Virus record (IMG/VR): IMGVR_UViG_3300006735_000062
Coordinates: 1 to 46,080 of that record
Source: a virus
DNA: 46,080 nucleotides
Strand: one strand, 5' to 3'
Below are positions 19,525-30,311 of this stretch, piece by piece (positions within the stretch are counted from its first letter, which is position 1; every line of letters starts with the position of its first letter). A model generated the notes under the pieces. It had not been told where the DNA came from. It did not search any database and worked only from the letters and a program-made list of their open reading frames with translations. A program made the translations under genes and the position numbers.

Positions 19525-20559
19525 ATGAAAACCCTTTTGATCACTGACCAACATTTTGGTGTTCGTAACGACAACCAACACTTTTTGGATCACTACAAAA
19601 AATTCTATACTGAAATTGTGATACCCTTTATCAAGGTATCTAAGATTGATACTGTGTTATGTCTGGGTGATACGTTTGATAAACGTAGATCAATTAACTT
19701 TATGTCGCTAGAAGCGGCAAAGGAAATGTGGTTTAACCCTCTTGAAGAGATGGGTGTGACAATGCACATGCTTGTGGGTAATCATGACATCTACTACAAA
19801 AACACTTTACGAGTTAATGCCCCAAGTGAATTACTGGGAGCATATGGGAACATCACAGTCTATGATGTCCCTACTACCGTTACTATTGGTGGTCTTCCTA
19901 TACTTTTTCTGCCTTGGATATGTGACGAGAATAGAGAAGAATCCCTCAGAACTATTAGTGAAAGTCCTGCTACTGTCGCTATGGGGCATCTTGAGCTTAA
20001 TGGATTTGAAGCTCACCCTGGTCATATGATGCACAATGGCATGGACTCAAACATGTTCAAACGGTTTGAGAAAGTGTTCAGTGGGCACTATCACATGAAA
20101 TCAAAACGAGATAATGTTCACTATCTCGGTAATCCTTATCAACTTTATTGGAATGACTACGGATGTAAAAGAGGATTCCATGTCTTTGACACAGAGACTC
20201 TTAAAACTACTTTTTACAGAAATCCCTTTGACACTTTTCATAAGCTCCATTATAATGGTGGAGTTAGCATACCGTCTGCGGACGAAATTAAAGGGTCCTT
20301 CGTCAAACTAATTGTCGAAGAGAAAGGTGATCATGCCAAGTTTGATTATGCAGTAAGACAACTGCAGGATCTGGGACTTGCTGATCTAAAAATCATCGAA
20401 GATCTAAGTGTTGATCTGGAGAATGGTGACGCGGTTCTGGAAACCGAAGACACCTTAACACTCCTTGACAACTACATAGATGAGATAGATTTGAAAGTTG
20501 ATAAAAACAACATTAAAGCTGTTATGAGATCTTTGTACATCGAAGCTTCAGAACTCTAA
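19525..20559 (+). CDS. gp47: recombination endonuclease subunit gp47 (SbcD/Mre11-like)
   Basis: The nuclease subunit of the gp46-gp47 complex, which processes DNA ends for recombination and host DNA breakdown. Metallophosphoesterase motifs are in order: DQHFGV, CLGDTFDKR, VGNHDIYY, GHLELNG and FSGHYHMKS. It has 344 residues (T4: 339). One small gene separates it from gp46. Confidence 0.95.
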   Translation: MKTLLITDQHFGVRNDNQHFLDHYKKFYTEIVIPFIKVSKIDTVLCLGDTFDKRRSINFMSLEAAKEMWFNPLEEMGVTMHMLVGNHDIYYKNTLRVNAPSELLGAYGNITVYDVPTTVTIGGLPILFLPWICDENREESLRTISESPATVAMGHLELNGFEAHPGHMMHNGMDSNMFKRFEKVFSGHYHMKSKRDNVHYLGNPYQLYWNDYGCKRGFHVFDTETLKTTFYRNPFDTFHKLHYNGGVSIPSADEIKGSFVKLIVEEKGDHAKFDYAVRQLQDLGLADLKIIEDLSVDLENGDAVLETEDTLTLLDNYIDEIDLKVDKNNIKAVMRSLYIEASEL

Positions 20560-20810
20560 TGTTTATTTTAACCGACGTATCCAGTGGTGGCATTTACGCC
20601 ACTACAGACAATTACGACAGAAAAGTCGTACATATCTTTGAGCAAGAAGAAGACGCTCAGAGATACATTACCCAATTGGCAGCAGATGATTATGAAGATG
20701 ATTTAGAAATTATGGAAGTTGAGCGTGAAGTTATTGCAATTAACTGCAACAACTATGGGTATCAATATTCCATCGTAACAAAAGACGACCTTGTAATTCC
20801 TCCACAGTAA
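20559..20810 (+). CDS. conserved small protein between gp47 and gp46
   Basis: An 83-residue acidic alpha/beta protein (MFILTDVSSGGIYATTDN, then HIFEQEEDAQRYITQL and a C-terminal YSIVTKDDLVIPPQ). It shares single bases with the stops and starts of gp47 and gp46 on both sides, so it is translated with them. No named family is recognised. A small partner or regulator of the gp46-gp47 complex is possible from position. Confidence 0.72.
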   Translation: MFILTDVSSGGIYATTDNYDRKVVHIFEQEEDAQRYITQLAADDYEDDLEIMEVEREVIAINCNNYGYQYSIVTKDDLVIPPQ

Positions 20811-22531
20811 TGATTACTTTTGAAACTATTCGTTGGAAGAACTTTCTTTCAACAGGTGACCAATGGACCGAAATTGAATTAAACGAATCTCAATCAACCT
20901 TGATTGTTGGTACAAACGGTGCGGGTAAATCAACCATGCTCGATGCTTTGTGCTTTGCTTTGTTTAATAAACCCTTTCGTAAAATCAATAGGGGTCAATT
21001 AGTCAATAGTATCAACGAAAAAGGAACTAAGGTAGAAGTTACTTTCTCTATTGGTAATGATGACTATCGTGTATTCAGAGGAATCAAACCTAATGTATTT
21101 GAACTTTATCGCAATAACAAACTGGTTGATCAGGATGCTGCTGCCAGAGACACGCAAAAATACCTGGAGCAATCAATCCTCAAACTCAACTTCAAAAGTT
21201 TTACTCAAGTTGTCATACTGGGATCATCAACTTTTGTCCCCTTCATGCAACTCTCCACAAGTCACAGGCGAGAAGTTATTGAAGATCTACTCGATATCAA
21301 CATCTTCTCAAACATGAATCAGTTGCTAAAGGATCGTGTTCGTACTTCTGTTGCTCAGAGTAAGGATTGTGATCACTTAGTTAACAGTGCAGAAGAAAGA
21401 GTACAGTCTCAAAGAAAGTTAATCTCATCTCTACAAGAGGTTAATGAAACTAGACAGAAAGAAAAGCAACAAAGAATTGCAACTAACCAATCAAGAATTG
21501 AAGAAGAGAAAAGTAATAAGTTAGATTTTGTTAAAGAACTTTCTCAAGTTGAGGAGTCGGTTGAAGGTGTTGATGATCAAAGAGATCTACTGAATGATCT
21601 TAGACAAAAGCAATCTGATGTTAATGCAGAACTGAAGTCTGCAGCAAAGGAACTTAAGTTCTTCAAAACACATGATGAGTGTCCTACTTGTTCTCAACAG
21701 ATCGAACCAGCATTCCAGAATGCTGTGATTGGATCTCTAACTGGTAGGGGTACGATACTCACCAAAGAGTTCAAAGAATTGACAGAACAAATTGCTGATG
21801 CAGTTGCTGTCATTGAGAAGATTGATGATATCTCTAGAAAATCTTTTGAACTTCAAAGTAAAATCTCTCGTAGTGATAAAGAAGTCGTTCGTTTGGAATT
21901 TGAAAACCTGGAGATTCAAAAAGAACTGACTAGTCTCATGACAGACACTCCTAATATCAGTGCCGAAGTTGAAACTCTTACAGCACTTGAGAAACAACTT
22001 GACGGAACTCTGAAAGAATGTGGTGAGGTTCGTAAAACTCTTGCTGAGTATCAGGTAGTATCAAATCTCTTGAAAGATTCTGGTATCAAGAGTCAGATCA
22101 TTAAAAAATATGTACCTATTTTCAATAATTTAATTAATAAATATCTGCAAAGTATGGACTTCTTTGTCAACTTTACCCTTGACGAAGAGTTTGGCGAAGT
22201 TATCAAAAGCAGATTTAGAGATGAATTTTCATATTCATCTTTCTCTGAGGGTGAGAAACAAAAGATTGACTTGGCACTATTATTCACTTGGCGCGAAGTT
22301 GCTCGTATGAAGAATAGTGTTGCTACAAACCTTCTGATTCTTGATGAAGTGTTTGATAGTTCCCTCGATGCCGCTGCTACTGGAGAACTTTTATCCATTC
22401 TTCGCAGTCTCGGTACTAGTACAAATCTATTTGTTATTAGTCACAAGGGTGAAATCTTAGTTGACAAGTTCCTCAGAACAATTAAATTTGAAAAGGTGAA
22501 TGATTTTTCAAAAATGTCGGACGATTCTTAG
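20810..22531 (+). CDS. gp46: recombination endonuclease subunit gp46 (SbcC/Rad50-like)
   Basis: The ATPase subunit of the gp46-gp47 complex. The N-terminal half-domain has Walker A GTNGAGKST at residues 34-42. Two long coiled coils flank the zinc hook CPTC (291-294). The C-terminal half has the signature SFSEGEKQKIDLALLF and Walker B LLILDEVFDS, then the H-loop in VISHKGE. It has 573 residues (T4: 560). It ends within the start of the next small gene. Confidence 0.95.
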   Translation: MITFETIRWKNFLSTGDQWTEIELNESQSTLIVGTNGAGKSTMLDALCFALFNKPFRKINRGQLVNSINEKGTKVEVTFSIGNDDYRVFRGIKPNVFELYRNNKLVDQDAAARDTQKYLEQSILKLNFKSFTQVVILGSSTFVPFMQLSTSHRREVIEDLLDINIFSNMNQLLKDRVRTSVAQSKDCDHLVNSAEERVQSQRKLISSLQEVNETRQKEKQQRIATNQSRIEEEKSNKLDFVKELSQVEESVEGVDDQRDLLNDLRQKQSDVNAELKSAAKELKFFKTHDECPTCSQQIEPAFQNAVIGSLTGRGTILTKEFKELTEQIADAVAVIEKIDDISRKSFELQSKISRSDKEVVRLEFENLEIQKELTSLMTDTPNISAEVETLTALEKQLDGTLKECGEVRKTLAEYQVVSNLLKDSGIKSQIIKKYVPIFNNLINKYLQSMDFFVNFTLDEEFGEVIKSRFRDEFSYSSFSEGEKQKIDLALLFTWREVARMKNSVATNLLILDEVFDSSLDAAATGELLSILRSLGTSTNLFVISHKGEILVDKFLRTIKFEKVNDFSKMSDDS

Positions 22532-22757
22532 AGTTTGGAAATATGCACTGGGTTCGTTCTCTGATGAGAAGACCGAGAGGTATGACAATGCTATTGTCAT
22601 TGTACGATCTATCGTGTTTTTCAGTTATCTCATTACTAATTGCTTCATTGTTGCTGGAGTGGTCCGCCACTGGGACAGTAACCAAAGTGTCCCCATAGTG
22701 TCCCCACACCTTGACGACGGTGCTATACTAGAATCAAACAAACGAAAGACCGAATGA
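22500..22757 (+). CDS. small membrane protein between gp46 and the VWA gene
   Basis: An 85-residue frame starts at ATG 22500, after AAAAGG, inside the end of gp46 (32-base overlap) and ends by ATGA overlap with the next gene. The part WKYALGSFSDEKTERYDN is followed by a transmembrane stretch (IVIVRSIVFFSYLITNCFIV). The C-terminal 25 residues overlap the promoter region of the next gene, which explains their polar, unstructured look. The function is unknown. Confidence 0.65.
   Translation: MIFQKCRTILRVWKYALGSFSDEKTERYDNAIVIVRSIVFFSYLITNCFIVAGVVRHWDSNQSVPIVSPHLDDGAILESNKRKTE
22582..22600. repeat. perfect 8-base inverted repeat
   Basis: ATGACAAT (22582-22589), a GCT loop, then ATTGTCAT (22593-22600). 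It lies in the 22500 coding frame, about 120 bases before the promoter of the VWA gene. It may be an operator or RNA hairpin, or simply coding sequence. Confidence 0.4.
22686..22729 (+). promoter_or_regulatory. regulated promoter of the VWA/peptidase gene
   Basis: Two direct repeats AGTGTCC(CC) start at 22686 and 22697, exactly 11 bases (one helical turn) apart. They end where the -35 element would be. An extended -10 box TGCTATACT follows at 22721-22729. The gene's ATG is 24 bases further on. The promoters at 25048 and 44714 share this layout. Confidence 0.6.
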
Positions 22758-24904
22758 TCAACCAGGAAGTCAAAGGCACTCTTGCCAAACTCCTCGCCAC
22801 CGAAAACCTTACTGTAGAGCATCGTAAGGTCAGCACGGCATGCTTTGACGTGGATACACGTCTGTTGATCCTCCCTATCTGGAAGACCGCTTCTAACACC
22901 GTGTATGACCTCCTGGTGGGGCATGAGGTGGGACATGCTCTCTATACCCCCAACCAGTCCTATGAACCCGCTCCTAAGGCGTTTGTGAATGTCCTAGAGG
23001 ATGCTCGTATCGAGCGTATGATGAAGGTGACCTATCCTGGTCTTCGCAAATCTTTCTTCTGCGGATACAAAGAGTTGTGGGATGATGATTTCTTTGGGGT
23101 TCGTGATGAAGATATGAGCACCCTTTCTCTGATTGATCGTATCAATCTTTACTACAAGGGTAATGCTCAGATTCCTTTCACTGAAGAAGAGAAGGTTTGG
23201 GTCAAGCGCACTAACGAAACTACATCATTTGATGATGTCATCAATCTGGCAATCGAATTGTATGAGTATGCTTGTGATAAGCAGCAGGAAAAAGAATCTA
23301 TCCCTGCTGAAGTGACACCTGATGGTGAGAAGTCTGCTGATAAGCAAGAGACAGTCACCAATGAAGGTGGTGAGTTGGAAGATGAAATGACCCACGAAGA
23401 GATGCTTGAAGAAGCAGCAAGGCGTGAGGGTGAATGGGATGATGAGAGAGACAGTGATGCTGATCTGGAAACACCTTCCTATGGTGGCACCAGCATGGAT
23501 GAGACCGTATCGATCACTGATGCTGCTCTACAGGAATCACTTCAGAGTCTTGTAGATGAGAATGCAAAGGAGTGGATCTATCTTTCTCTTCCTAAAGTGG
23601 ATGTTGATAAGTGTATTATCAGTCATGGTGAAATTCAAAAGGAACTGAATGAGTGGTTCTATACAAGAGAGTATGGTGATGATGAGACTAGAATCTATCA
23701 ACTGAATGCTGTTGATTATGGAATCAAGAAATACAATAGTTACAAGAAGTCTGCTCAAAAATCTGTTAACTACCTAGTCAAACAGTTTGAGATGAAGAAG
23801 TCTGCAGACAATTACAAGAGAACAGCAGTTGCAAAGACAGGTGTTATTGATACTAACTCTCTGTACAAGTACAAACTTACTGATGATATCTTTAAGAAGA
23901 TGACCATCACACCTGATGGTAAGAATCATGGTCTGATCATGTATCTTGACTGGTCTGGTTCTATGTCAGATGTTATGTTGGATACTCTGAAGCAAACTTT
24001 CAACCTGGTTTGGTTCTGTAAGAAAGCAGGTATTCCTTTCCGTGTCTATGCATTCCAAAGTGGCATCCATTCTTTCTATGGATCTGACAAGGATGTGCAT
24101 CCTGGTTTTGAAAGAAAGGACAATGTTCTCTCTTCTACCAGTGACTTCCGACTTCTAGAGATGTTCTCTTCTCGTCAGAATGCTCGCTCTCTTGAGAAGT
24201 CTATGCAACTTGTTTTCCTACAAGTATTCTCTTTCAACGGATGGAGACTTCCTACCTGCCGTACTTACAATCTTGGCGGTACTCCTTTGGCAGAAGCAGT
24301 TCTTTGCACCCGTGATTTGGTTACTAAGATCAAACGACTTGAGAATGTACAGAAAGTAAATGTTGTTGCTTTGACTGATGGTGAAGCGAATCCAATGTCT
24401 TTCTTGTCACCTTATCCTGAAGGCATGAATGTTATGGACAGGGATTTCCGTTCCAACTATCTTTGCCATCATCACCACAAAGTATTCTTCCTGAAGGATC
24501 CTAAGACTGGATACACTCGTAAACTTAACAACAGTCCCTACGAAACTACCAAAGAGATTGTGAGTTTCTATCGTGAGATCACTGACTACAATTGGATTGG
24601 AATTCGTATCTGCTCTAAAGCAGAACTTGGTAGGGTTGTTCGTGGTCTTCCCTTCATGGATGGTGAAGCAATTGATAAGCAATGGAAGAAACAACGCTTT
24701 GCTTCTATCAAGAATGAAGTAGGATTCACTGAGTCTTTCTATATGCCTGATAGGGGAATTGGAATGGGAACTCAAGACTTGGAAGTAAAGACTAAGAAAG
24801 AAGTTGCTACCAAGGCAGAACTCGCCCGTGCATTCAAAAAGCACATGGGTTCTAAAATGACAAACAAAACTATCCTCAATGCATTCATTGAGCAAATCGC
24901 ATGA
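22754..24904 (+). CDS. VWA-domain protein with HEXXH metallopeptidase motif (CobT-like)
   Basis: A 716-residue protein. Near the N-terminus is HEVGH (57-61), a zinc-peptidase HEXXH motif, followed by NVLEDARIERMM, which can give the third ligand. An acidic linker covers about 185-245. The C-terminal VWA domain has a complete MIDAS: DWSGS (Asp399, Ser401, Ser403), Thr510 in LGGTPLAEA and Asp542 in LTDGE. The closest named relative is CobT, partner of CobS in cobalt chelation, and a CobS-type ATPase lies downstream. Unlike a plain CobT, the peptidase motif is intact. It may be a MoxR-VWA chaperone or protease rather than a B12 enzyme. Confidence 0.8.
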   Translation: MINQEVKGTLAKLLATENLTVEHRKVSTACFDVDTRLLILPIWKTASNTVYDLLVGHEVGHALYTPNQSYEPAPKAFVNVLEDARIERMMKVTYPGLRKSFFCGYKELWDDDFFGVRDEDMSTLSLIDRINLYYKGNAQIPFTEEEKVWVKRTNETTSFDDVINLAIELYEYACDKQQEKESIPAEVTPDGEKSADKQETVTNEGGELEDEMTHEEMLEEAARREGEWDDERDSDADLETPSYGGTSMDETVSITDAALQESLQSLVDENAKEWIYLSLPKVDVDKCIISHGEIQKELNEWFYTREYGDDETRIYQLNAVDYGIKKYNSYKKSAQKSVNYLVKQFEMKKSADNYKRTAVAKTGVIDTNSLYKYKLTDDIFKKMTITPDGKNHGLIMYLDWSGSMSDVMLDTLKQTFNLVWFCKKAGIPFRVYAFQSGIHSFYGSDKDVHPGFERKDNVLSSTSDFRLLEMFSSRQNARSLEKSMQLVFLQVFSFNGWRLPTCRTYNLGGTPLAEAVLCTRDLVTKIKRLENVQKVNVVALTDGEANPMSFLSPYPEGMNVMDRDFRSNYLCHHHHKVFFLKDPKTGYTRKLNNSPYETTKEIVSFYREITDYNWIGIRICSKAELGRVVRGLPFMDGEAIDKQWKKQRFASIKNEVGFTESFYMPDRGIGMGTQDLEVKTKKEVATKAELARAFKKHMGSKMTNKTILNAFIEQIA

Positions 24905-25044
24905 AGTGTAAAGTACAACTGTTCATCGCTGGCACCGTATTTGATGAGATCGTAGTTGCAAGAGACTACGATCATGCCAGAAAGATCGCTCTCGCTCGCA
25001 ACCCTGAAGCAACCGTGATGGGTGTGACAGCAGTGTTCGATTAA
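24901..25044 (+). CDS. small hypothetical protein between the VWA gene and cobS
   Basis: A 47-residue protein starts by ATGA overlap with the VWA gene. It reads as a short beta-alpha-beta unit (KVQLFIAGTVFDEIVVARDY, then HARKIALARNP). It is too short for a named domain. A promoter element for cobS begins four bases after its stop. Confidence 0.6.
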   Translation: MKCKVQLFIAGTVFDEIVVARDYDHARKIALARNPEATVMGVTAVFD

Positions 25045-25047
25045 ATA

Positions 25048-25090
25048 ACTGTCCCAGGACTGGCACAAACCCCAGTCCATCTGCTATAAT
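25048..25090 (+). promoter_or_regulatory. regulated promoter of cobS
   Basis: ACTGTCC at 25048-25054 lies 37 bases before TATAAT (25085-25090) in an extended -10 TGCTATAAT. Between them an inverted repeat GGACTGG (25057-25063) and CCAGTCC (25072-25078) covers the -35 region. This looks like an operator or activator site. The cobS ATG is 34 bases after the -10 box. Confidence 0.65.
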
Positions 25091-25123
25091 AAACACATAC
25101 AAACAAAACAATCCGAGAATCCA

Positions 25124-26203
25124 ATGCCTTTCGCTCCAAACCCAGTCACCACCGAACAACTCGTAGAGTATCTTACTGATAAAGTTGGCACTGAAGTCGG
25201 ATGTAACAACATTCGGGAAGCAGCAGATTCTCTGAATGTATCCTATGCTACTGCCTGTAAGCGCCTGAAGGATTATAAATCAGGTACGGGTAAGTGGAAT
25301 CTCTCTGCTCAAGAAATTGCGCGAGCATATGAGGCACCTTCCGCTGCCCCTGCAATCGAAGTATCCTACGTTCCTAATAAAGATGGTTCCTATGTCCCTT
25401 TTGGTAACTTCAGCAATGTTCGCAAAGTTATCTCCTCTCGTCAATTCTACCCTGTCTTTATCACAGGACTTTCGGGAAATGGTAAAACCCTGTCCGTTGA
25501 GCAGGCTTGTGCTGCAACGAATCGCGAGTTGATTCGTGTCAACATCACAATCGAAACGGATGAGGATGATCTTATTGGTGGTTTCCGTCTCGTCAATGGC
25601 GATACTGTTTGGCACAATGGTCCTGTCATCGAGGCTCTGGAGAGGGGAGCTGTACTTCTTCTAGACGAGATCGACCTTGCTAGTAACAAGATCCTGTGTC
25701 TGCAGTCTGTCCTTGAGGGTAAGGGTGTCTTCCTGAAGAAGATTGGTAAGTATATCCAACCCAAAGAAGGATTCAATGTTATTGCTACTGCCAATACCAA
25801 AGGCAAGGGTTCTGATGACGGTCGCTTTGTGGGAACCAATATCCTGAACGAAGCGTTCCTTGAAAGGTTCCCAATCACATTTGAGCAGGATTATCCTTCT
25901 GCTGCCATTGAGCATAAGATTCTTATGAACTCTGGTTGTGATGAGATCTTTGCAGACAATCTGATCAAGTGGGCAGGTGTGATTCGTAAGACTTTCTTTG
26001 ACGGTGGTGTTGATGAAGTTGTTACTACCCGTCGTCTTGTTCATATCGTTCGTGCCTTTGAAATCTTTGGTGATCGCATGACAGCAATTACCACTTGCAC
26101 CAACCGATTTGATGAAGATACTAAGCAATCTTTCCTTGATCTCTATACGAAGGTTGACGCAGGAGAAGATTCGGAATATAATGAAGTTGAAGAAACCCTC
26201 TGA
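25124..26203 (+). CDS. cobS: MoxR-type AAA+ ATPase, CobS-like
   Basis: A 359-residue ATPase. The N-terminal about 75 residues contain a helix-turn-helix-like stretch (NIREAADSLNVSYATACKRL). Then come Walker A GLSGNGKT (115-122), Walker B LLLDEID (Asp181-Glu182), a sensor in VIATANTKGKG and an Arg-bearing NEAFLERFPITF. In bacteria CobS with CobT inserts cobalt into the corrin ring. Cyanophages widely carry this gene, and a role in host B12 synthesis has been proposed. The neighbouring VWA/peptidase suggests instead, or in addition, an AAA+ remodelling machine. It has its own promoter. Confidence 0.88.
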   Translation: MPFAPNPVTTEQLVEYLTDKVGTEVGCNNIREAADSLNVSYATACKRLKDYKSGTGKWNLSAQEIARAYEAPSAAPAIEVSYVPNKDGSYVPFGNFSNVRKVISSRQFYPVFITGLSGNGKTLSVEQACAATNRELIRVNITIETDEDDLIGGFRLVNGDTVWHNGPVIEALERGAVLLLDEIDLASNKILCLQSVLEGKGVFLKKIGKYIQPKEGFNVIATANTKGKGSDDGRFVGTNILNEAFLERFPITFEQDYPSAAIEHKILMNSGCDEIFADNLIKWAGVIRKTFFDGGVDEVVTTRRLVHIVRAFEIFGDRMTAITTCTNRFDEDTKQSFLDLYTKVDAGEDSEYNEVEETL

Positions 26204-26205
26204 TT

Positions 26206-26490
26206 ATGAAATACAATGAAGAAGAGCTCCTTCGGGAGCTCAAAGACTATATCATTGGCACATACAATCAGCACTATGCAACTGGCGATGATAGTGTCCA
26301 GACGCTAGATCTGATTGATGCCTGTGGAGATGCTGAGGCATTCTGTAGGAGCAACATCCTAAAGTATGCTTCTCGATATGATAGGAAAGGAACTGCCCGT
26401 CGTGACATCATCAAGATCCTTCACTACGGTCTTCTCCTTCTTTACTTCAGCGACAAATCTGCACCCCCTACTGAAACGTATCCTCAATGA
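26206..26490 (+). CDS. DUF3310-like small protein
   Basis: A 94-residue protein. The block NQHYATGDDSVQTLDLID..., AFCRSNILKYASRYDRKGT and the C-terminal RDIIKILHYGLLLL resembles DUF3310 (His-Tyr near the start, then N-x-x-KYxxRxxxKG). That family is common in phages and sometimes listed as a putative nucleotide kinase, without proof. It lies two bases after cobS and overlaps the clamp gene by four bases. Confidence 0.65.
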   Translation: MKYNEEELLRELKDYIIGTYNQHYATGDDSVQTLDLIDACGDAEAFCRSNILKYASRYDRKGTARRDIIKILHYGLLLLYFSDKSAPPTETYPQ

Positions 26491-27152
26491 CCGTAATTAC
26501 CCGCCCAACAATTGAAGTCCTCAAGAACTTTTGTTCAATCAATAAATCTATTGTCATCAAACCTGGCAATACAATTGCTACTCTTAGTATCAACAAAAAC
26601 ATTCTTGCTATCGCTAAAGTCGAAGAGCAGTTTGATTCGCAGATTTCTATTTACGATCTGGGTGTATTCCTTGGCGGTCTGTCTCTCTTTGATGCGCCGA
26701 AGATCGATACTACCGAGTCCAATTACGTCACTGTAAGTGATACAGCAGGCAAGTCGAAGACTCGTTTCTTCTATGCTGACCCTGATATCATCACTCAACC
26801 ACCTGAGAAAGAGATCAACCTTCCTAGTTGTGATGTAGATTTCGTTCTCCCTGCTACGGCATTGCAGCAACTGCAACGTGCTGCTAGTATCTATCAACTG
26901 CCTGACCTGTGTCTTCATGCTGACGGTGCTCAGATGTTCCTATCTGTGACTGATCGTAAGAACGATACTTCCAACAGTTACTCTGTTCAGGTTGAAGGTA
27001 TGCCTATGGAGGACACTGATCGGTTCTGCTATTGCTTCAAAGTGGAGAATCTGAAACTCCTGCCTGGTGGATACAACGTTTACATTAGTAAGCAGAACGT
27101 TGCTAGGTTTGAGGGTGAAAACATTAAATACTTTATTGCACTAGAACCGTGA
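26487..27152 (+). CDS. gp45: sliding clamp (gp45)
   Basis: A trimeric DNA clamp that tethers the polymerase gp43 and, with gp55, activates late promoters. It has 221 residues (T4: 228). The start TRPTIEVLKNFCSINKSIV and the later DVDFVLPATALQQLQRAASIYQ match gp45. It is first in the clamp and clamp-loader run 45-(speD)-44-62, preceded by a DUF3310-like gene. Confidence 0.92.
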   Translation: MTVITRPTIEVLKNFCSINKSIVIKPGNTIATLSINKNILAIAKVEEQFDSQISIYDLGVFLGGLSLFDAPKIDTTESNYVTVSDTAGKSKTRFFYADPDIITQPPEKEINLPSCDVDFVLPATALQQLQRAASIYQLPDLCLHADGAQMFLSVTDRKNDTSNSYSVQVEGMPMEDTDRFCYCFKVENLKLLPGGYNVYISKQNVARFEGENIKYFIALEP

Positions 27153-27158
27153 CCCATT

Positions 27159-27500
27159 ATGCGACACATCATATTCACACTGAAAGGTTGCCCCTTTCCG
27201 CTTTGTGATGATGAATCGCACATCCGCACTATGCTTGTGAATGCTGCTGTAATGTCCAACAGCACATTACTAGATGTGTCCTCCCATAAGTTTGAACCTT
27301 ATGGTGTAACCGCTATCGCACTTCTTGCTGAATCACATATCAGCATCCATACATGGCCAGAGAAGTGCCTGGCGGTATGTGACGTGTTCACCTGTGGCGA
27401 ACACACTCTCCCTCAATCAGCAGCACAATACATGTTTGAACGCATGGAAGCAACTGACTGGGTGGGAACTGAAATTAAACGACCTTTAGATGATGAATGA
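27159..27500 (+). CDS. speD: S-adenosylmethionine decarboxylase proenzyme
   Basis: A pyruvoyl enzyme that makes decarboxylated SAM, the aminopropyl donor for spermidine. The 113-residue prokaryotic form has the self-cleavage site ESHISIHTWPE; cleavage before Ser59 would create the pyruvoyl group. The conserved Cys of VCDVFTCGEH is also present. It lies inside the clamp operon between gp45 and gp44 and overlaps gp44 by 11 bases. Cyanophages are known to carry speD. Polyamines may help DNA packing or translation. Confidence 0.9.
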   Translation: MRHIIFTLKGCPFPLCDDESHIRTMLVNAAVMSNSTLLDVSSHKFEPYGVTAIALLAESHISIHTWPEKCLAVCDVFTCGEHTLPQSAAQYMFERMEATDWVGTEIKRPLDDE

Positions 27501-28434
27501 TTTTTTGTGGGTAGAGAAGTATCGTCCTCAGACTGTGGATGAATGCATTCTCCCCGAATCCGTGAAAGACACCTTTAAAAGTTTTATTGAGCAGGGTGAA
27601 ATTCCCAACCTCCTGCTTACTGGAACTGCTGGTGTTGGTAAGACTACTATTGCTAAGGCACTCTGCAATGAATTGGGAGCAGACTACTATGTTATCAATG
27701 GGTCCGATGAAGGTAGATTCCTGGACACTGTACGCAATCAGGCAAAGAACTTTGCCTCTACTGTGTCTCTCACTTCTACTGCTCGTCACAAAGTTCTTAT
27801 CATTGATGAGGCAGATAACACGACGCCAGATGTACAACTTTTGCTTCGTGCAAGTATCGAAGAGTTCCAGAAAAACTGTAGGTTCATATTCACTTGTAAC
27901 TTCAAAAACAAGATTATTACACCGCTACATAGCAGAACAACAGTAGTTGAATTTAATGTCCGTGGGCAAACTAAACAACAGTTGGCAGCGTCTTTCTTCG
28001 ATCGCTGCAGAGATATCCTCGAACGCGAGAAGGTCACCTTTGCGCCACGAGTTGTGGCAGAAGTCGTACAAAAATACTTCCCAGATTTCCGACGCACCCT
28101 CAACGAACTGCAGCGATATTCAAGCACAGGGTCTATTGACACTGGCATTCTGGCGGCGCTAGGTGATGCTAATATCGATTCTCTAGTTGAGAGTCTGAAG
28201 AACAAAAAGTTCAACGATGTTAAGAAGTGGGTAACCCAGAACCTTGATTCTGATCCTGCTGCCATCATGCGTAAACTCTATGACAATCTGTCTAGTGTGA
28301 TGGATGGTCCTAGTGTTGCTGCTGCTGTATTGATCATTGCAGAGTATCAATATAAGTCTGCCTTTGTGGTAGATCAAGAGATCAATCTTCTTGCTTGTCT
28401 TACACAACTAATGCTGGAGTGTAACTTCAAATGA
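27490..28434 (+). CDS. gp44: clamp loader large subunit (gp44)
   Basis: An AAA+ ATPase that opens gp45 and loads it on primed DNA with gp62. It has WVEKYRPQTVDECILP at the start, Walker A GTAGVGKTT, Walker B VLIIDEADN, sensor 1 FTCNFKNKI and an arginine-finger region in PLHSRTTVVEF. It has 314 residues (T4: 319). ATG 27490 and 27493 are both possible starts. Confidence 0.95.
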   Translation: MMNDFLWVEKYRPQTVDECILPESVKDTFKSFIEQGEIPNLLLTGTAGVGKTTIAKALCNELGADYYVINGSDEGRFLDTVRNQAKNFASTVSLTSTARHKVLIIDEADNTTPDVQLLLRASIEEFQKNCRFIFTCNFKNKIITPLHSRTTVVEFNVRGQTKQQLAASFFDRCRDILEREKVTFAPRVVAEVVQKYFPDFRRTLNELQRYSSTGSIDTGILAALGDANIDSLVESLKNKKFNDVKKWVTQNLDSDPAAIMRKLYDNLSSVMDGPSVAAAVLIIAEYQYKSAFVVDQEINLLACLTQLMLECNFK

Positions 28435-28873: not shown

Positions 28874-29703
28874 CATCTTTGAAAACTCCTCTTCGTTATC
28901 CTGGTGGTAAGTCCCGTGCTGTCAAAAAGATGGCACAGTTCTTTCCACTCTTTTCTGACTATAAAGAGTTTCGCGAACCTTTCCTTGGCGGTGGTTCTGT
29001 AGCACTGTACATCACACAGATGTATCCTCATCTAGATATCTGGGTGAATGATCTGTACGAACCTCTATACACATTCTGGACCCAACTACAGGAGAATAGT
29101 AATGAAATTAGGTCCCAACTCATCCAACTTAAACAAAGGCACCCTGACCCCAGTTCGGCAAAATATCTTTTCCTGGAGTCTAAAGAATATCTTGCCAAAC
29201 CCTGCAGACAGACTGATGCTACGGCTCGTGCTGTCAGTTTCTATATTGTTAACAAGTGCTCTTTTTCTGGTCTCTCTGAGTCCTCCTCGTTCAGCAAGCA
29301 GGCGTCAGACTCAAACTTTAGTGTGCGAGGAATTGAAAAACTCCCCTACTATGGACAACTCATCAAGGACTGGAGAATCACTAATCTGTCGTATGAAGAA
29401 TTGATGACAGACGACAAGTCTGCATTTGTTTATCTGGATCCTCCTTATGAAATTAAATCCAACCTATACGGGAAGAGAGGCGACATGCATAAGGGATTTG
29501 ATCATGACAAGTTTTCTTTTGATTGTGATAAGTTCAAATGTGATCAAATGGTTTCATACAATTCTTCCAACCTGATTAAGTCTCGTTTCTTAGATTGGAA
29601 ACCGTATGAATATGATCATACATATACGATGAGATCGGTGGGTGAATATATGAAAGAGCAGCAACAACGTAAAGAACTTCTCCTCCTGAATTATGTCGTA
29701 TGA
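28870..29703 (+). CDS. dam: DNA adenine methylase (Dam type)
   Basis: A SAM-dependent N6-adenine methyltransferase, class alpha. The N-terminal TPLRYPGGKSRAV and FREPFLGGGSVAL (SAM site) are followed by the catalytic YLDPPYE near residue 190. It has 277 residues, normal for Dam (T4 Dam: 259). The usual target of this family is GATC, which cannot be read from the sequence alone. It may protect phage DNA from host or phage nucleases, or mark strands. It overlaps genes on both sides by four bases. Confidence 0.9.
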   Translation: MTSLKTPLRYPGGKSRAVKKMAQFFPLFSDYKEFREPFLGGGSVALYITQMYPHLDIWVNDLYEPLYTFWTQLQENSNEIRSQLIQLKQRHPDPSSAKYLFLESKEYLAKPCRQTDATARAVSFYIVNKCSFSGLSESSSFSKQASDSNFSVRGIEKLPYYGQLIKDWRITNLSYEELMTDDKSAFVYLDPPYEIKSNLYGKRGDMHKGFDHDKFSFDCDKFKCDQMVSYNSSNLIKSRFLDWKPYEYDHTYTMRSVGEYMKEQQQRKELLLLNYVV

Positions 29704-30311
29704 ACACACAGTTAATTGATAACTATCATGTTTATATTCCTCAATTAATCAGCGAGGAAGAAGCAGTTAGTTATGCTGATGAATTTATTAAATTTGATGA
29801 GCAGTATCATTATCCAACAGATGATAAATTGCTGCATGCAATGAATTCAATGGAATCTACAGCAGCATCTCTGTACAATCAAATTGGTGCAGTAGAATTA
29901 CTGTGTAGATTGACACCGCAGATTAGTTCTATCGTTGAAGAGACTGTTGTTCCTTCATATTCATTTGCTAGAATATATCGTAACAACGATTTCTTACCTC
30001 CACATGTAGATCGTGCCGCGTGTGAAATCTCACTGACTCTGCATATGAAAGGGGACCACAGTTGGCCCTTTGAAATTGAAAAACCTGATGGTACAATACA
30101 ATCATTTGAATTGAATCGTGGTGATGCTGTATTGTATTTGGGTCCTGTTGCTTTCCATAGCAGGAACACTAAGTATCAAGGAACTGAGTATGTACAGTTC
30201 TTCCTGCACTATGTAAGAAGCAGGGGTATCTACTGCAACGCTGTATTTGACAGCATGGCAGTTATGAATGATCATGAAACACTATTGAAAGAATACCATG
30301 CCTTACGATGA
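29700..30311 (+). CDS. 2OG-Fe(II) oxygenase-like protein
   Basis: A 203-residue protein. Core motifs are LPPHVDRAACEISLTLH with His and Asp, NRGDAVLYLGPVAFHSRN with the distal His, and a closing strand EYVQFFLHYV. A canonical 2-oxoglutarate Arg is less clear than in the other members. It starts in the dam stop (ATGA) and overlaps gp62 by 14 bases. It is the fourth oxygenase in the window. Confidence 0.75.
   Translation: MNTQLIDNYHVYIPQLISEEEAVSYADEFIKFDEQYHYPTDDKLLHAMNSMESTAASLYNQIGAVELLCRLTPQISSIVEETVVPSYSFARIYRNNDFLPPHVDRAACEISLTLHMKGDHSWPFEIEKPDGTIQSFELNRGDAVLYLGPVAFHSRNTKYQGTEYVQFFLHYVRSRGIYCNAVFDSMAVMNDHETLLKEYHALR

Follow-up and report, generated by a model that had tools for sequence, protein, structure and literature searches.

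A cobS-linked gene pair of a T4-like cyanophage as a candidate MoxR-VWA remodelling machine with a zincin-like domain

CobS was listed among the core genes of cyanophages in 2010 (PMC3037559), and surveys of marine viruses mostly treat cobS as an auxiliary metabolic gene for vitamin B12. With an adjoining gene for a VWA protein it forms a pair that is already known; both are core genes of the Kyanoviridae (cyanomyoviruses) and are usually filed under vitamin B12. Liu 2021 (PMC8651126) took the phage 'peptidase' to be a mis-annotated CobT, while Iyer 2021 (PMC7824862) described a MoxR ATPase paired with an N-terminal metallopeptidase-vWA chaperone in group 2.2 jumbo phages and proposed a role in virion assembly. 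Both the pairing and the metallopeptidase-VWA architecture have thus been described before, and other authors regard the function of the pair as open (PMC11288001; PMC5083919). In the latter two papers, the names cobS and cobT are used with mixed meanings, either for cobaltochelatase subunits or for like-named late-step enzymes. Here we describe the pair in a 46,080 nt stretch of viral DNA (IMG/VR virus record IMGVR_UViG_3300006735_000062, positions 1 to 46,080; hereafter the window), a fragment of a T4-like cyanophage, where the VWA partner is encoded at 22754..24904 and the CobS-type ATPase at 25124..26203 (all window features given below with coordinates are on the + strand unless no strand is assigned). 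The sequence, fold and distribution of this pair agree better with a machine that remodels proteins in connection with viral DNA replication than with the vitamin B12 label.

The VWA partner is a protein of 716 aa that matches PHROG 459 ('peptidase', CobT-like) over its full length (1013 bits). Its N-terminal zincin-like domain (residues 1-182, 22754..23299), recognised from an AlphaFold2 (AF2) model and its Foldseek matches in the PDB, carries the motif HEVGH (residues 57-61, 22922..22936) and, on the next predicted helix, LEDARIE (residues 81-87, 22994..23014). An acidic linker follows (residues 183-255, 23300..23518), much of it with a predicted local distance difference test score (pLDDT) below 50, and then a long helix and loop (residues 310-387, with KTGVIDTNSL; 23681..23914) directly before the modelled VWA domain (residues 388-670, 23915..24763). 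The protein closes with a conserved C-terminal helix ending in FIEQIA (24812..24901). The metal-ion-dependent adhesion site (MIDAS) of the VWA domain is complete, with DWSGS (D399, S401 and S403; 23948..23962), T510 (24281..24283) and D542 (24377..24379).

In an alignment of 101 IMG/VR members, H57, E58, H61, E82, D83, E87, D399, S401, S403 and D542 are 100% conserved, R85 is likewise invariant, and T510, the only MIDAS residue to vary, is conserved at 95%. Modal conservation in the same alignment is 0.71 for the N-domain, rising to 0.91 in the HEXXH helix, as against 0.52 for the VWA region and 0.30 for the linker. HEVGH or HECGH, with a downstream ED.R[IV]E, occurs in 154/154 full-length IMG/VR relatives and D.SGS in 157/157, while the chance expectation of an HEXXH in a protein of this composition is about 0.02. 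The original prediction, made from the window sequence, had placed all of these motifs and the Walker motifs of the ATPase at exactly the right residues, and the intact peptidase motif to which it drew attention belongs to a real and strictly conserved zincin-like domain.

The AF2 model of the full-length VWA partner (pLDDT 81.7; predicted template modelling score, pTM, 0.74) has an N-domain of three strands and helices, in which HEXXH lies on helix 48-64 and LEDARIE on helix 75-93; after it come a disordered acidic linker, the long helix with its loop, the VWA domain and finally the C-terminal helix. Its best fold match in the PDB is the VWA domain of NorD in the NorQD complex (9qhe_G, E 6.4e-4), and the next matches, close to it, are other NorD entries and MDN1-MIDAS. 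When the N-domain was modelled alone (pLDDT 88.8, pTM 0.85), the top 11 Foldseek PDB matches were all zincins, comprising ArdC, selecase, PprI/IrrE, M61 aminopeptidase, abylysin and jannalysin. These matches are individually weak (best E 0.088, probability 0.90), and the weight of the predicted zincin assignment lies in the agreement across the match list and not in single E-values. The modelled domain has the order seen in zincins of the gluzincin type, an HEXXH helix followed by a glutamate-bearing helix, and E82 is a candidate third zinc ligand. The N-domain very probably binds zinc and may cut a remodelled target or serve as a metal-dependent grip.

Since the catalytic-type glutamate, E58, is as invariant as the histidines, we argue that the metal is more than structural. 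The alternative, that the site holds a structural metal or is a relic and that the pair is a pure unfoldase or remodeller, is in our view somewhat unlikely. It gains from relatives that lack HEXXH and retain the MIDAS and the ATPase, and from the degenerate domain of bacterial CobT (both described below), but it sits poorly with an E58 that is invariant in 101 sequences and an HEXXH present in 154/154 cyanophage-type members, as a purely structural zinc site has no need of E58.

The ATPase (359 aa) matches PHROG 249, labelled porphyrin biosynthesis, with 485 bits and contains an AAA_5 domain (E 1e-19), Walker A (GLSGNGKT, residues 115-122; 25466..25489) and Walker B (LLLDEID, residues 178-184; 25655..25675). 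A probable helix-2 insert, the mark of MoxR-clade AAA+ proteins, is LIGGFRLVNGDTVWHNGP (25571..25624), assigned from the alignment family and not from a structure. With a full MIDAS in the adjoining gene, the pairing of a MoxR-type ATPase with a VWA protein, as first proposed, is borne out. Residues 1-75 (25124..25348) form a helix-turn-helix (HTH)-like N-terminal extension that is conserved in the ATPase alignment (HTH_23, E 0.0022, under the Pfam cut-off). The ATPase of an Acinetobacter plasmid has at its N-terminus a Ros/MucR zinc finger that scores above the cut-off (E 6.9e-6), with weaker matches in its relatives, and neither type of extension was found in bacterial CobS. Phage MoxR ATPases thus differ in their DNA-binding-like N-termini, Ros/MucR zinc finger or HTH, as seen at L173:7068-7307, L088:4533-4772 and window:25124-25348.

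The relation of the pair to cobaltochelatase was traced in steps. For the cyanophage proteins, the profile alignment with CobT-like proteins of phage-plasmids spans 376 columns, starting at HEXXH and reaching into the VWA domain (probability 97.8, E 1e-12). The phage-plasmid proteins in turn match bacterial CobT along 570 columns (probability 100, E 9e-44); restricted to the N-domain, this second comparison still gives E 3.5e-5 (reversed control 0.39). The link between cyanophage and CobT rests on these phage-plasmid intermediates, because direct comparison was non-significant, both for the N-domain profiles (E 0.14; reversed control 0.56) and at full length (probability 9.6). By this route, sequence comparison identifies the VWA partner as a distant full-length CobT homologue. 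At the position of HEXXH, bacterial CobT has SMALR-like residues, and VEQARVE stands in place of LEDARIE. Bacterial CobT therefore appears to have the same N-domain without HEXXH, presumably by loss. Liu 2021 and Iyer 2021 are thus each partly right, since the VWA partner is homologous to CobT and also carries an intact zincin site, which CobT does not have.

This homology is the main support for a hijacked cobaltochelatase, in which phage CobS and CobT would join host CobN to give more cobalamin, for example for a B12-dependent ribonucleotide reductase (Liu 2021, PMC8651126; earlier literature on auxiliary metabolic genes). A vacancy for such subunits exists, as the cyanobacterium S. elongatus, in our control set, has CobN and no CobT match, and cyanobacterial hosts can thus have CobN. 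Nevertheless, the ATPase, although similar to CobS (E 7e-19), scores 66.7 bits where the curated NCBIfam cut-off for the CobS family (TIGR01650) is 558.55, and the VWA partner has no match to the CobT family (TIGR01651). True CobT lacks HEXXH, so that its strict conservation in phages needs another reason. E. coli makes no corrin ring, and yet similar pairs occur in its phage-plasmids as well as in those of Klebsiella, so the wider family is not confined to B12-making cells or to the company of CobN. The B12 pathway had to be imported into E. coli in PMC6249242. We also sampled 241 alphaproteobacterial genomes (G001-G241), 193 of them with CobT; 97 of these 193 had no CobN match, some of which may be explained by genome incompleteness. 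Even in cells, then, CobST is often found in the absence of the catalytic subunit, and cellular CobST probably has a role beyond B12 synthesis too. With relatives in E. coli elements and half of the sampled CobT-bearing alphaproteobacteria lacking CobN, homology to CobST does not imply cobalt chelation. Cobalt insertion into corrin is not the best reading, and we consider a hijacked chelatase quite unlikely. The doubt that the original prediction cast on a B12 function was well placed to this extent, but the HEXXH motif alone cannot dismiss a CobST-like role for a distant full-length CobT homologue.

The two genes are found together with great regularity. A relative of the VWA partner is encoded in 463 phage records, nearly all of cyanophages. 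CobS follows the VWA gene in 141/157 loci, no locus with room downstream lacks it, and the VWA gene precedes CobS in 32/32 CobS loci with room upstream. In the window the pair lies between the recombination nuclease genes gp47 (SbcD-like, 19525-20559) and gp46 (SbcC-like, 20810-22531; upstream block 19525..22531) and the genes of the gp45 sliding clamp (26487-27152) and gp44 clamp loader (27490-28434; downstream block 26487..28434). The same genes, gp46/47 and gp45/44, flank the pair in Kyanoviridae and one Ochrobactrum phage. In phages or plasmids of Rhizobium, Pseudomonas, E. coli, Klebsiella, Acinetobacter and Stenotrophomonas, dnaE lies downstream of it; in Pararhizobium the pair is likewise beside dnaE, and in ICP2 its neighbours are a primase and a replicative helicase.

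Cyanophage-type relatives were found neither in plasmids nor in the 241 alphaproteobacterial genomes, a set without a positive control. About 1,000 plasmid records, for the most part from Klebsiella and E. coli plasmids of 100-115 kb, contain CobT-like genes of the phage type. At L171:4965-8404, L172:4956-8660 and L173:5001-8312, in phage-plasmids with E. coli, Klebsiella and Acinetobacter as hosts, a CobT-like/MoxR pair directly precedes dnaE. Relatives are also present in Gordonia, Vibrio and archaeal siphoviruses, which, like the phage-plasmids, have virions quite unlike those of the cyanophage. HEXXH is kept in the Ochrobactrum, Rhizobium, SSU5-like E. coli and Klebsiella, Gordonia and ICP2 relatives, while Pseudomonas phage nickie, the Acinetobacter plasmid and Stenotrophomonas phage ANB28 lack it and retain the rest of the pair. 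The 'porphyrin biosynthesis' gene of Staphylococcus phage K was set aside, as it has no adjoining VWA gene.

This distribution bears on the proposal, made for group 2.2 jumbo phages (Iyer 2021, PMC7824862), that the pair is a virion-assembly chaperone with processing of structural proteins. That published proposal draws on an analogous MoxR-VWA pair in Acidianus two-tailed virus, and head proteins are processed in large myoviruses, a task that a zincin could perform. However, the genes are grouped with replication and recombination genes and not with head or tail genes, in Kyanoviridae as well as in unrelated phages, and relatives occur in phage-plasmids and siphoviruses with very different virions. 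A virion role is accordingly improbable in our assessment, and the replication-gene neighbourhood together with the DNA-binding-like ATPase N-termini better supports a target near DNA.

We therefore favour a reading of the pair as a remodelling machine of the MoxR-VWA, finger-in-ring type that acts near phage replication and has an N-domain that binds zinc and may be proteolytic, and give this full description about an even chance of being correct. By analogy with the NorQD model (PMC9976466, PMC13036017), the 25124 product would be the MoxR-type AAA+ ring, assembled from six ATPases, and the 22754 product its VWA co-chaperone. A finger of the VWA protein would enter the ATPase pore, the conserved C-terminus would dock onto the ring, and the MIDAS metal would grip an acidic site on the target. 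The candidate finger is the long helix and loop before the VWA core, which aligns with an R.GkL...L segment of the phage-plasmid CobT-like proteins, and the candidate docking segment is the C-terminal helix, by analogy with the C-terminus of NorD. Driven by ATP, the VWA domain would turn relative to the N-domain and so remodel the target. As a minimal zincin, with the HEXXH helix followed by the helix bearing the invariant E82, the N-domain would offer a second contact and possibly a protease. The gene position and the DNA-binding-like ATPase N-termini suggest that the target is located at phage DNA or the replisome. A bolder version, which we rate as unlikely, would cast phage 'CobST' as an AAA+ zincin machine, linked to replication, by which proteins bound to phage or host DNA are stripped off or cleaved, with bacterial CobT descending from it by loss of the zincin site.

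Several points weigh against the favoured remodelling machine. Nickie, the Acinetobacter plasmid and ANB28 keep the pair without HEXXH, so the wider system can do without catalysis. None of the zincin matches of the N-domain has an E-value below 0.05, and the profile search against metallopeptidase families that had been suggested as a check gave no family match, either in Pfam (single sequence and 75 members) or in the PDB; the VWA partner has no curated peptidase-family match, and one of its relatives has a sub-threshold match to PF04298 (E 0.0025). The HTH match of the cyanophage ATPase falls under the Pfam cut-off, and the position in the replication module could mirror only a shared timing of expression. 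Papers on cyanophage transcription give no expression timing for the pair, and scans for promoters, terminators and late-promoter-like sequences around it were close to chance level or not informative. Should the pair be a remodelling machine, the B12 label would be mistaken, as would the ecological conclusions based on it, and the two genes would represent a core cyanophage function with a predicted active site.

The gene content of the window is that of a T4-like cyanophage: genes for terminase, sheath, portal, scaffold and the major head protein lie in its left part, and UvsW, gp55, gp47, gp46, the VWA/CobS pair, gp45, gp44, gp62, RegA, DNA polymerase, UvsX and a DnaB-type helicase in its right part. 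An open reading frame (ORF) of 47 aa (24901..25044, PHROG 685) lies between the VWA gene and CobS and overlaps the stop of the former. No other cobalamin gene was found among the ORFs scanned in the window, as first claimed, and CobN was not found there; this is weak evidence, since the window covers 46 kb and related phages have about 170-200 kb. The ORF at 29700-30311 (no strand assigned) matches PHROG families named 'ferrochelatase' (E 2e-48) and has no Pfam match, and this label may be wrong. A phage-encoded glucose-6-phosphate dehydrogenase gene (zwf) is located at 184-1626 (no strand assigned), upstream of the terminase gene. Defence-system models gave nothing over noise in the window.

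Compared with described systems, the window pair is a member of the Kyanoviridae core pair of 'peptidase' (PHROG 459, T4-GC 146) and CobS (PHROG 249, T4-GC 150), with full-length matches of 1013 and 485 bits, respectively, and an equal gene order and genome place. The pair of group 2.2 jumbo phages (PMC7824862) is alike by its text description, a MoxR ATPase and a vWA protein with an N-terminal metallopeptidase domain, but was published for jumbo phages and assigned to virion assembly. Cobaltochelatase CobS-CobT (TIGR01650, TIGR01651; PDB 9ujv, 9uka) is distantly homologous along the whole VWA partner via intermediates, and differs in that the window pair falls far under the family cut-offs, the CobT N-domain has no HEXXH and the phage ATPase has an extra HTH-like N-terminus. 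NorQ-NorD (PDB 9qhe, 9qh6) shares a VWA domain with MIDAS, a pre-VWA finger (present in NorD, PMC13036017; a candidate here) and a conserved C-terminus, and gives the best VWA fold match; it differs in its target, nitric oxide reductase, and in an N-domain that is not described as a zincin. The N-domain of NorD/CbbO is a possible zincin relic. At a separate locus (L333, - strand), a VWA partner beside a CbbQ/NorQ-type ATPase has an LP-strand and helix resembling the zincin N-domain, with no HEXXH. The minimal zincins (ArdC, selecase/minigluzincins and PprI/IrrE) have the same HEXXH helix followed by a helix with an acidic ligand and provide the best fold matches for the N-domain (E-values at least 0.09), but they show no detectable sequence similarity to it, and the domain of the window protein is fused to a VWA domain.

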